64,000 bases of DNA from Brachyspira innocens ATCC 29796 (GTDB lineage Bacteria > Spirochaetota > Brachyspiria > Brachyspirales > Brachyspiraceae): NCBI RefSeq assembly GCF_000384655.1, contig NZ_ARQI01000126.1, forward strand, positions 1 to 64,000, given 5' to 3'. Position 1 is the stretch's first letter; each line of letters opens with the position of its first letter. The position numbers and the translations under genes are program-made. The notes under the pieces were generated by a model that saw only the letters and a program-made list of their open reading frames with translations, did no database searches and had not been told where the DNA came from. Positions 10,775-54,402 of this stretch are shown here, piece after piece.

Positions 10775-11115
10775 TATATACATAAACAAATACAGTTGTC
10801 AAAAAATTAATTTTTTAAATTTAAAATATACCTGCACCCCACTTATTTTGCTGCCCGCTATGCGTGCTATAGGCAAGGCTCCCACTAGGTGGTGACCCAT
10901 ACGAAGTACGCCTCACTCTGCGTGCCGTAGTCAGGCAAGAAGCAGGCACAGCCCGCCGCTCTGCGTGCCGACGAAGTCCACCTGTGGTATCGGCAGCGAA
11001 GGACTGCATACTTGTATATTAAAATAATAACTAACATGTAAAATATTGTTTTATAATTTATAAATTACGAAAATTTTATATATAATCTTATCAAGCACTT
11101 TTAAAACAAGTCTAT
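10775..11115 (-). repeat. Dispersed GC-core repeat, copy A (long core)
   Basis: The gap between nifS and the HPr gene holds an element of about 340 bp with AT-rich arms and a GC-rich core (about 10840-11010). Its high-coordinate end, ending at 11115, is a close copy of the AGACTTGTTTCAAAA end of copies B, C and E in reverse; the low end matches their TTTTGACAAATTATA-type end. The core is longer than in the other copies and contains repeated CTCTGCGTGCCG segments. An open frame at 10821-11009 is judged spurious. It is probably a small non-autonomous mobile element or a structured RNA repeat. Confidence 0.8.
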
Positions 11116-20242: not shown

Positions 20243-20490
20243 AGACTTGTTTCAAAACTACTTGACAAGATTATATGTAAAATTTTGCTGATTTATAAAT
20301 TATTAAAATAATGTTTTAAATGTTGTATAATTTATCGTTTTAGTATATAAATATGCAGTCCTTTTGCTTCTTTGGGTCACCACCGAGTAGGTGCCTAGGC
20401 GGCAAAAGAAGTGGGGTGCGGGGCAAAGCCCTGCAAATATTTTAAATTTAAAAAATTAATTTTGACAAATTATACTTGTTTAGGTATATA
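20243..20490 (+). repeat. Dispersed GC-core repeat, copy B
   Basis: Fills the folC to secreted-protein gap. The left end is AGACTTGTTTCAAAA, then CTTGACAAGATTATATG. The core at about 20353-20435 contains TGCAGTCC, GGGTCACCACC, GGCAAAAGAAGTGGGG and the hairpin GGGGCAAAGCCC. The right end is TTTTGACAAATTATACTTG followed by TTTAGGTATATA. It is nearly the reverse complement of copy C over its left arm and core. Confidence 0.85.
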
Positions 20491-21235: not shown

Positions 21236-21381
21236 ATTCCTTCCTCAAATGCTAATAAAATTGTCATACAATATAGAATATTTATTTTTTAAAAAATGTT
21301 GGATTAATAAAAGAATAAATTGAAAATCAAAATAAATTACTGTTTAAATATTGCATAAATTAATTTCACAAAACTTTTCAA

Positions 21382-21418: not shown

Positions 21419-22105
21419 TTATATTCCATTATCTCCAAATTCAAATATATCTAAATGTAAACCTATTTGAGCCCCTATATCAACAGAAGCTAATTTTCCG
21501 CTATATTTATATCCTTCACCTAATGATGATAAGTTATCTTTTATCTGATAATATGGTATGTCAAAATTAACATAGAATGATAAACTTAAAACAACCAAAT
21601 TTATACCTGTATAAAGTCTTATATATGGTATGATTGTATTGTTAAATCTGCTGTATAAATCGCCTCCGCTTAATTTTGTACCATTGTTATTTTCCAAGTA
21701 TGAGCCTGAAAGAGGAAATTTAACACCGCCTCCTATACCTAATTGGAATATTAAAGGACGCCATTCTAAATTAATTCCAGTCATAATACTGTCAAATTGA
21801 TGTGTAAAGTTTTGTGAAGCAGTTTGAAATTGAAAAGTATCTCTATACCAGCCAAAATCTAATCCCAAAGATATATAATTGTAGCTTATTGCACTCATTT
21901 TAAAATTAACTCTAGGCTGAAATATTACTCCCATTTCAAATGCTGATTTTGGACTTAATGATGAAGTTGTATTTAAATTATCGTTTTGATATAGACTAGG
22001 AATACTTCCTCCTAATGGAATATAAAGACCTAAACCTAAAGAGTGAGAGTAGGCTAATGCCGATGTCATCACAAGTAAGCTAATTAGTATAATAATTTTT
22101 TTCAT
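21419..22105 (-). CDS. Secreted barrel-like protein, tandem family member 2
   Basis: A 228-residue paralogue with signal peptide (MKKIIILISLLVMTSALAYS) and the same ordered blocks: GLYIPLGGSIPSLYQN, SAFEMGVIFQPRV, GWYRDTFQFQ, GIGGGVKFPLSG, IPYIRLYTGINL and NFDIPYYQIKDNL. It is closest to member 1 in its C-terminal half (YKYSGKLASVD) and to member 4 at its N-terminus, so segments may have been exchanged. The role is unknown. A 257-bp repeat element (copy C) has inserted between this gene and its conserved upstream promoter, lengthening the leader to nearly 400 bases. Confidence 0.85.
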   Translation of the reverse strand: MKKIIILISLLVMTSALAYSHSLGLGLYIPLGGSIPSLYQNDNLNTTSSLSPKSAFEMGVIFQPRVNFKMSAISYNYISLGLDFGWYRDTFQFQTASQNFTHQFDSIMTGINLEWRPLIFQLGIGGGVKFPLSGSYLENNNGTKLSGGDLYSRFNNTIIPYIRLYTGINLVVLSLSFYVNFDIPYYQIKDNLSSLGEGYKYSGKLASVDIGAQIGLHLDIFEFGDNGI

Positions 22106-22194
22106 ATTTTTGCCTTAAAACAAATAAAATTTTTTAATAATTTAGAATAATTCTTTTGAAAAAATTGGAGTTAATAAATGACTTTTTAAATATT

Positions 22195-22451
22195 AGACTT
22201 GTTTCAAAACTAATTTTATTTATTAATTGTGGGGACTAGCCCCCACTTCTTTTGCCGCCTAGGCACCTACTCGGTGGTGACCCATACGAAGTACGCCTGC
22301 GGCGAGAAGCAGGCACAGCCCGCAGACGCGAAGGACTGCATATTTATATACTTAAATAATAAGTTATACAACATTTAAAACATTATTTTAATAATTTATA
22401 AATTAGCAAAATTTCACATATAATCTTGTCAAGTACTTTTGAAACAAGTCT
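22195..22451 (-). mobile_element. Dispersed GC-core repeat, copy C: MITE-like, intact ends and target duplication
   Basis: A 257-bp element with 15-bp perfect terminal inverted repeats (AGACTTGTTTCAAAA at 22195-22209, its complement at 22437-22451). It is flanked by ATT on both sides (22192-22194, 22452-22454). The equivalent place in the next tandem unit (about 23461-23472) reads TTTAAATATTGCAT without the element, so this is a clean insertion with a 3-bp duplication. The core has GGGGACTAGCCCCC, CCTAGGCACCTACTCGG and a CTGCGGCGAG...CTGCG region. It encodes no protein, so any mobility would need a transposase from elsewhere. Confidence 0.88.
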
Positions 22452-22494
22452 ATTGCATATATTAATTCCATAAAACTTTTATAAACCTAGTATC

Positions 22495-22522
22495 AGTATA
22501 AAGTTTTTGATATAAAAGTCAA
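22495..22522 (-). promoter_or_regulatory. Promoter of tandem family member 2, separated by the inserted element
   Basis: Read on the minus strand: TTGACT (22522-22517), 16 bases, TATACT (22500-22495). The same sequence stands before member 3. Transcripts from here must cross copy C before reaching the coding region. Confidence 0.6.
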
Positions 22523-22652
22523 TATAAAAGTATATGATTTTTATTATAGCCTATGTTTGTATTTATGGTTTTTGGAAATTATTCTTTTATAATTAAAGTA
22601 TATGTATATATGAAAACATTTTCTATTATTATGTTTTTTGATAAAGATTTAA

Positions 22653-23357
22653 TTATATAAATATAAGTTCTTCTCTTTCATTTTTTCCAAATTGGAATAT
22701 ATCTAAATGTATGCCAAACTGAACACCTATATCAATAGAAAATAACTTACCTGGATATTTATATCCTTCACCCAATGAAGATAAATTATCTTTTATTTGC
22801 ATATTTGATATATCGAAATTAGCATATAATGATAAACTTAGAACAAGCAAATTTATACCTGTATAAAGTCTTATATAAGGTATTAGAGGGTTTTTAAATC
22901 TTGCTGAAACATTTCCTCCATTTAATGCTGTATCATTGTCCCCAATCCAATATTTACCTGTAAAAGGAAATTTAACACCGCCTCCTATACCTACTTGGAA
23001 TATTAAAGGACGCCATTCAAAATTAATTCCAGTCATAAGACTGTCAAATTCATGTGTAAAATCTTGATAATCATATTGAAATTTGAATGTATCTCTATAC
23101 CAGCCTACATCTAAACCTATAGAAATATGATGAATGCCTTTTTTATCTGCCTGAAAACTAACTCTAGGCTGAAATATAACACCTATCTAGAATGCACTAT
23201 GCGGAGATAATGTTATATTTGGATTAGCATTATCATTTTGATAAAGGCTAGGAATACTTCCTCCTAATGGAATATAAAGTCCTAATCCTAAAGAGTTGGA
23301 GTATGCTATAGTTGTTGTCATTATAAATATGGTGATTAGTATAATACTTTTTTTCAT
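22653..23357 (-). pseudogene. Tandem family member 3, broken by one in-frame TAG
   Basis: The frame from the ATG at 23357 (MKKSIILITIFIMTTTIAYS, a signal peptide) to the stop at 22653 is continuous, about 234 codons, except for TAG at 23189-23187. At that place the paralogues have the Glu of SAFEVG/SAFEMG, so one base change (GAG to TAG) explains it. Downstream the family blocks go on in the same frame (IGVIFQPRV, GWYRDTFKFQ, GIGGGVKFPFTG, NFDISNMQIKDNL). No other lesion is seen. It may be a recent pseudogene, a switchable allele or a sequencing error. An internal ATG at 23036 is unlikely to make a secreted product. Confidence 0.85.
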
Positions 23358-23369
23358 ATTTTTCCTCAA

Positions 23370-23690
23370 AACCGATAAAATTGTGTGAGATAGGATAATT
23401 TAGAATATTTATTTTTAAAAAATTCTGATTTAATGAATTGAAAATACAAATAAATGACTGTTTAAATATTGCATAAATTAATTCCATAAAACTTTTATAA
23501 ACCTAGTATCAGTATAAAGCTTTTGATATAAAAGTCAATATAAAATATATAGTTATACCATATATTGGTATTTATAATTTTTTAAACTTTATCTTTTTAT
23601 AATGAAAGTATTAAAAATGTGGATATATAAAAATATACCCCCAAAAATTTTTTTCAATTATACTTGATTTATGTAATAAAATTTAATCTA
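23370..23690. other. 321-base gap between family members 3 and 4
   Basis: Contains the conserved upstream unit of member 3. On the minus strand TTGACT (23538-23533), 16 bases and TATACT (23516-23511) form its promoter, followed by a leader of about 150 bases that includes the empty site matching the copy C insertion. No gene is seen. Confidence 0.6.
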
Positions 23691-24368: not shown

Positions 24369-24605
24369 ATTTTATCTCCTTAATATTTATAAAAGATGTT
24401 TATGGAATATGATAGAAACATGAAATAATTTAGAATATTGACTTTGGATAAAAAAGTGAAAGAATAAACGAATGTTTTTGAAAATATAGAATTATTAAAA
24501 TAGAAATTTATATATTGCATAAATTAATCCACTGAAACTTTCATAAACCTTGTTTAATAATAAATGTTTTATATATAAAAGTCAATATGAAAATATAAAT
24601 TTTTG

Positions 24606-54155: not shown

Positions 54156-54402
54156 AGACTTGTTTCAAAAGTACTTGACAAATAATTTTAATAGTTTATT
54201 ATTTTATGCTAATTTATATAATATTAATTATTATATAAATTATATGTTTTATATGTTGTGTAATTTGTTGTTTTAGTATATAAATATGCAGTCCTTTTGC
54301 TTCTTTGGGTCACCAAAAGAAGTGGGGTGCGGGGCAAAGCCCTGCAAATATTTTTAATTAAAAAAATTAATTTTTGACAAATTATAATTGTTTAAGTATA
54401 TA
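54156..54402 (+). repeat. Dispersed GC-core repeat, copy E
   Basis: The gap between recR and psuK begins the element with AGACTTGTTTCAAAA at 54156 and ends with TTTTGACAAATTATAATTG followed by TTTAAGTATATA. The core (about 54287-54350) is the shortest: TGCAGTCC, TTTTGCTTCTTTGGGTCACC, AAAAGAAGTGGGG and the GGGGCAAAGCCC hairpin, lacking the CCGAGTAGGTGCCTAGGCGG module of copy B. Same orientation as copy B. Confidence 0.85.

Follow-up and report, generated by a model that had tools for sequence, protein, structure and literature searches.

Element C, a short segment in the leader of a tandem-family gene, raises the question of what it is, whether it was inserted there and which transposase would have moved it. 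We addressed this in the window, the whole 64,000-nucleotide stretch of Brachyspira innocens ATCC 29796 DNA analysed here, and across the genus. The left junction reads ...TTTTTAAATATT followed by AGACTTGTTTCAAAA (22195-22209), and the right junction reads TTTTGAAACAAGTCT (22437-22451) followed by ATTGCATATATT..., so that the 257-bp length, 15-bp perfect inverted ends and flanking ATT triplets given in the initial annotation are correct to the base. When extended, the arms match at 91% over 22 nt. The open reading frame list contains no ORF of at least 60 aa within 22195-22451, and element C carries no transposase gene. Both strands are predicted to fold strongly (z -6.6 and -7.2), the minus-strand RNA reaching -84.7 kcal/mol (z -7.2). 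An Rfam search of element C returned nothing at gathering thresholds, and comparison with phage and plasmid collections gave no match. Element C combines the features of a MITE: it is short and gene-less, with inverted ends, a fixed-length duplication, dispersed copies, empty sites and a probable autonomous partner, the last being an IS of B. pilosicoli PC5538III-hc that lies outside the window's own genome and whose middle is unread. We conclude with high confidence that element C is a MITE of an IS5-family IS, belongs to the group that has AGACTTGTTTCAAAA-like ends and targets 5'-ANT-3', and was inserted at an ATT of the leader.

Table 1. Element C and surrounding features, in window coordinates.
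Feature	Position	Strand	Basis and remarks
MITE element C	22195-22451	n/a	257 bp, gene-less; sequence, BLAST, repeat-arm search, end-motif count
Left terminal inverted repeat AGACTTGTTTCAAAA	22195-22209	+	Sequence
Right terminal inverted repeat	22437-22451	-	Sequence; 15 bp, perfect partner of left end
Target duplication, left ATT	22192-22194		Sequence; lone ATT at empty sites; 3-bp duplication in family
Target duplication, right ATT	22452-22454		Sequence; lone ATT at empty sites; 3-bp duplication in family
Paralogous empty site TTTAAATATTGCAT	23461-23474		Sequence, junction listing; one ATT
Second paralogous empty site TTTAAATATTGCAT	21343-21356		Sequence, junction listing
Downstream gene, 228 aa, tandem family, outer-membrane-like	21419-22105	-	Weak OMP_b-brl match, in a paralogue only
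Promoter-like TTGACT-16-TATACT, upstream of element C	22495-22522	-	Consensus match; repeat in next unit, 23511-23538
Terminator-like hairpin, facing away from gene 21419-22105	22229-22246	+	Consensus match only
GC-rich hairpin module, 61% GC	22238-22311		Element positions 44-117; copies also outside the MITE family

The unfilled form of the site is found both within the window and in related genomes. Two paralogous empty sites lie upstream of neighbouring tandem-family genes, and one of them (23461-23474) is the adjacent tandem unit in which the initial annotation had recognised the same flanks joined at one ATT. Querying 26 Brachyspira genomes with the 3 kb that surround the insertion site yielded two close orthologous loci, in G009 and G015 (Brachyspira sp. 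G79), both empty. The G009 alignment joins query positions 3-795 to 1052-2982, meeting at a single ATT, and the G015 junction reads TTTAAATATGCAT, one T short. About 30 homologous leaders, represented by conserved right-flank copies at loci across the genus, read ...AAATA joined to TTGCATAAATTAATTCC, and only that of the window is filled. The flanks of element C are 91-92% identical to the empty G009 and G015 loci, which places the insertion after the split, unless the element was lost repeatedly. G005 carries a different MITE-family copy (L067, 1138-1420) in the leader region, ~20 bp off the corresponding point, and this copy is an independent event. The comparison with other Brachyspira that the initial annotation had proposed thus gives a locus that is empty in both close relatives, and presence varies between species.

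The family to which element C belongs is numerous in the genus. With at most one mismatch, the end motif is counted 121 times in the window's genome and its reversed control 2 times, and G006 (B. hampsonii 30446) holds 159 exact ends against 0 in the control; whole-element BLAST adds dozens more copies or part-copies in the window's genome. Within the window alone, the 15-mer at 3 mismatches is found 13 times where 7.4 are expected, which is not significant; the exact matches and genome-wide counts nevertheless show that the family is not a product of chance. From the fetched loci, 83 paired copies were gathered for analysis of duplications and arms. An exact 3-bp duplication flanks 58 of the 83, whereas 10,000 re-dealings of the right flanks averaged 32 and never exceeded 47, and each other length between 1 and 8 bp gives 0 to 4 exact flank matches; the remaining 25 paired copies have no exact duplication. 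The duplications are nearly always AAT or ATT. The left-flank bases are, in order, A (80/83), A or T (78/83) and T (82/83), and those of the right flank A (80/83), A or T (80/83) and T (77/83), which defines the target as A(A/T)T, within the broader ANT pattern. Universal presence of the element and a lack of duplications elsewhere had been named at the outset as outcomes that would count against mobility; we find instead duplications in 58 of 83 copies and differences between species.

Clustering of the arms revealed that nearly all elements consist of a constant arm, CTACTTGACAA..., and one of two other arms, and led us to reject free mixing of arms among the 83 elements. The IS-left-like arm is paired with an AT-only arm in 50/83 and with a GC-rich hairpin arm in 23/83, element C being of the GC-rich-arm type. 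The window also contains other family members, full or partial, at 10876-11113, 20243-20416 and 54156-54296, with an end at 974-988. One B. hampsonii locus (L209, G006:C4:385534-387099) has several MITE ends in a row and looks like adjacent or nested insertions.

PF01609 matches are few in the genus. One of them, in G011, stops 18 bp short of a perfect match to the end motif, and a protein search together with an end search found the same sequence at numerous contig edges: the assembly is interrupted inside a multicopy IS. The host of this IS is B. pilosicoli PC5538III-hc, which provides the transposase gene with a AGACTTGTTTCAAAA end that the initial annotation had suggested seeking. The C-terminal 142 aa of the transposase match NF033581 (IS5, E=5.5e-28) and PF01609 (E=1.2e-19, above cut-off); the NF033581 score of 98 bits falls short of the 140 set for whole proteins, as the protein was read only in part. 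The stop codon lies inside the terminal repeat, and the gene reads into the same ends. At the other side, the left 246 bp of the IS open a reading frame ending ...EELRKVYKGFNNGRPRKLSLETMLFITFIYFKQ, which we take to resemble an IS5 N-terminus. The IS junctions that were read comprise 14 distinct left and 13 distinct right ones, with two sequence variants per end. Their trinucleotides are AAT 8, ATT 4, AGT 1 and TAT 1 on the left and, on the same strand, AAT 9, ATT 3 and TAT 1 on the right, in close agreement. The probable parent element has a DDE transposase of IS5 type and the 3-bp ANT duplication of this IS5 group.

The left end of the IS, AGACTTGTTTCAAAAGTACTTGACAA, is identical to the first 26 nt of the 3' end of element C (22426-22451). 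Beyond this shared end IS and MITE have little in common, and mere shortening of this particular IS does not account for the MITE interior. Two remnants bridge IS and MITE: a decayed IS of 754 bp that retains its two ends, in G018 (L100), and a 357-bp chimera in G004 (L096), in which a MITE arm is fused to the right end of the IS and an ATT stands at each flank. IS5 relatives on plasmids of Spiroplasma ixodetis and Acinetobacter carry comparable ends and are flanked by duplicated ATT or AAT. Protein scans of the transposase fragment against genome and viral contigs gave no match, and thus no whole copy of the parent IS; no complete intact copy was obtained, as the assembly breaks inside it and the middle is unread. 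The 26-mer end occurs only in Brachyspira records among genome contigs and is absent from viral contigs. Four other PF01609 transposases of the genus (L088, L090, L092 and L093) were rejected as partners, having no matching ends. The longest-read IS5 copy (G011:C74) is truncated beside two integrase-like transposase genes that flank it (L089, 466-1392 and 2059-3009).

The window's own genome retains only a decayed transposase trace (C123:59438-59639), and profile and protein searches of this draft found no intact transposase; without an outside supply of transposase the copies are thus probably immobile, and an IS may be hidden in an assembly gap. The view that mobility of the family is credible accordingly holds for the family, given the 58 of 83 duplications, the species differences and the partner IS, whereas it is doubtful that the copies in this strain can still move, given only a decayed transposase trace.

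Precise loss of the element from neighbours and relatives, with no insertion here, would leave the same lone ATT, and the G015 junction, off by one T, fits such a history; it is nevertheless highly improbable, because independent precise losses would be needed in G009, G015 and the ~30 leaders, whereas insertion requires one event. An origin from another transposase family, such as a TA-target IS630/Tc1, with the IS5-like ends borrowed or coincidental, appears exceedingly improbable. A TA...TA reading of the flanks is obtained by shifting one base per end out of the element, and the MITE interior is unlike the IS interior; however, the empty site ...AAATATTGCAT suits a 3-bp ATT duplication and not TA, the TAT- and AGT-flanked IS junctions break a fixed TA rule, and the 26-nt identity with the IS end also stands against this origin.

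The strong folding of both strands, the position between a promoter-like site and a gene, and the occurrence of the GC-rich module outside the MITE would all suit hairpin repeats kept for a regulatory or RNA role (REP-like or leader RNA) and spread by recombination. Against such a role, the combination of exact inverted ends and 3-bp ANT duplications is a transposase signature, only one of ~30 homologous leaders is filled, no Rfam family is reached at gathering thresholds, and covariation is slight (-0.36 of -10.78 kcal/mol); we hold it to be very improbable as the explanation of element C, with a secondary effect on gene 21419-22105 being possible. For the IS5-type MITE, a full-length relative would supply the DDE transposase that acts on the inverted ends; the target would be cut with a 3-bp stagger, the element joined and the gaps repaired, which would duplicate the ATT. 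The ATT that received the insertion belongs to the conserved leader of a surface-protein-like gene of the tandem family, and the mover was presumably the B. pilosicoli-type transposase or one closely related to it that has since been lost.

Comparison with known systems places element C among bacterial IS5 derivatives. It shares with ANT-target IS5 ISs (NF033581) the AGACYT-like inverted ends, the 3-bp ANT duplication and, through its probable partner IS, a related DDE transposase, and differs from these ~0.9-1.1 kb elements in being 257 bp long and without a transposase gene. The ANT-target IS5 group is presumably the ISL2 group of ISfinder, whose target we assume to be the same. IS5 MITEs, short gene-less elements of this sort, are well known in other bacterial genera. 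Element C shares with them its IS-matching inverted ends, duplication, many copies and mostly intergenic location; it differs in its own genus and sequence and in having, as one arm, a GC-rich hairpin that also occurs away from the MITE family. Searches of the open-access literature returned no description of a MITE in Brachyspira or of the partner IS; the family is new for Brachyspira and of a known kind. Bacterial IS5 elements are reported to use a 5'-ANT-3' target, as does Pangu among the eukaryotic Pangu/PIF-Harbinger (Tourist-like) MITEs, which belong to the same wider transposase superfamily (PMC4482050); these eukaryotic MITEs are distant relatives only. As a numerous genus-wide family with ends, target and partner, the elements provide markers for Brachyspira strain comparison, and they identify some short unannotated intergenic sequence in Brachyspira as transposon-derived.

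The GC-rich hairpin module may be the one less ordinary part of element C. Its consensus has matches in 22/26 Brachyspira genomes. Among 28 distinct near-full copies, MITE ends bracket 10 and are missing from both sides of 15, several of the end-less copies being intergenic and, by eye, near a promoter-like TTGACA. A consensus fold exists, with slight covariation. Since the module is found both with and without MITE ends, it could be a mobile or shuffling unit of Brachyspira in its own right, passing between intergenic sites and IS5-type MITEs, a reading that we consider unlikely; if true, IS5-type MITEs would be vehicles for an independent hairpin element. The module sequence (22238-22311; L174-L190, L211-L240) also contains smaller recurring GC-rich blocks, in a very AT-rich genus.

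Element C lies between the promoter-like TTGACT-16-TATACT and the start codon at 22105. Promoter-like matches are not above those in shuffles, so this weak call relies on position and on repetition in the next unit. If transcription of 21419-22105 starts at the predicted promoter, its leader would gain 257 nt of strongly folded sequence. The family is a concrete source of promoter and leader changes in tandem surface-protein-like genes. A leader block, TTTAAATATTGCATAAATTAATTCCATAAAACTTTTATAAACC, recurs at 21340-21370, 22452-22540, 23460-23560 and ~24510-24560, upstream of tandem paralogues, and is found in most Brachyspira genomes; its conservation suggests a putative shared regulatory leader. 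The next paralogue (22653-23369, minus strand) carries an in-frame stop at ~23185-23187, giving two partial ORFs.
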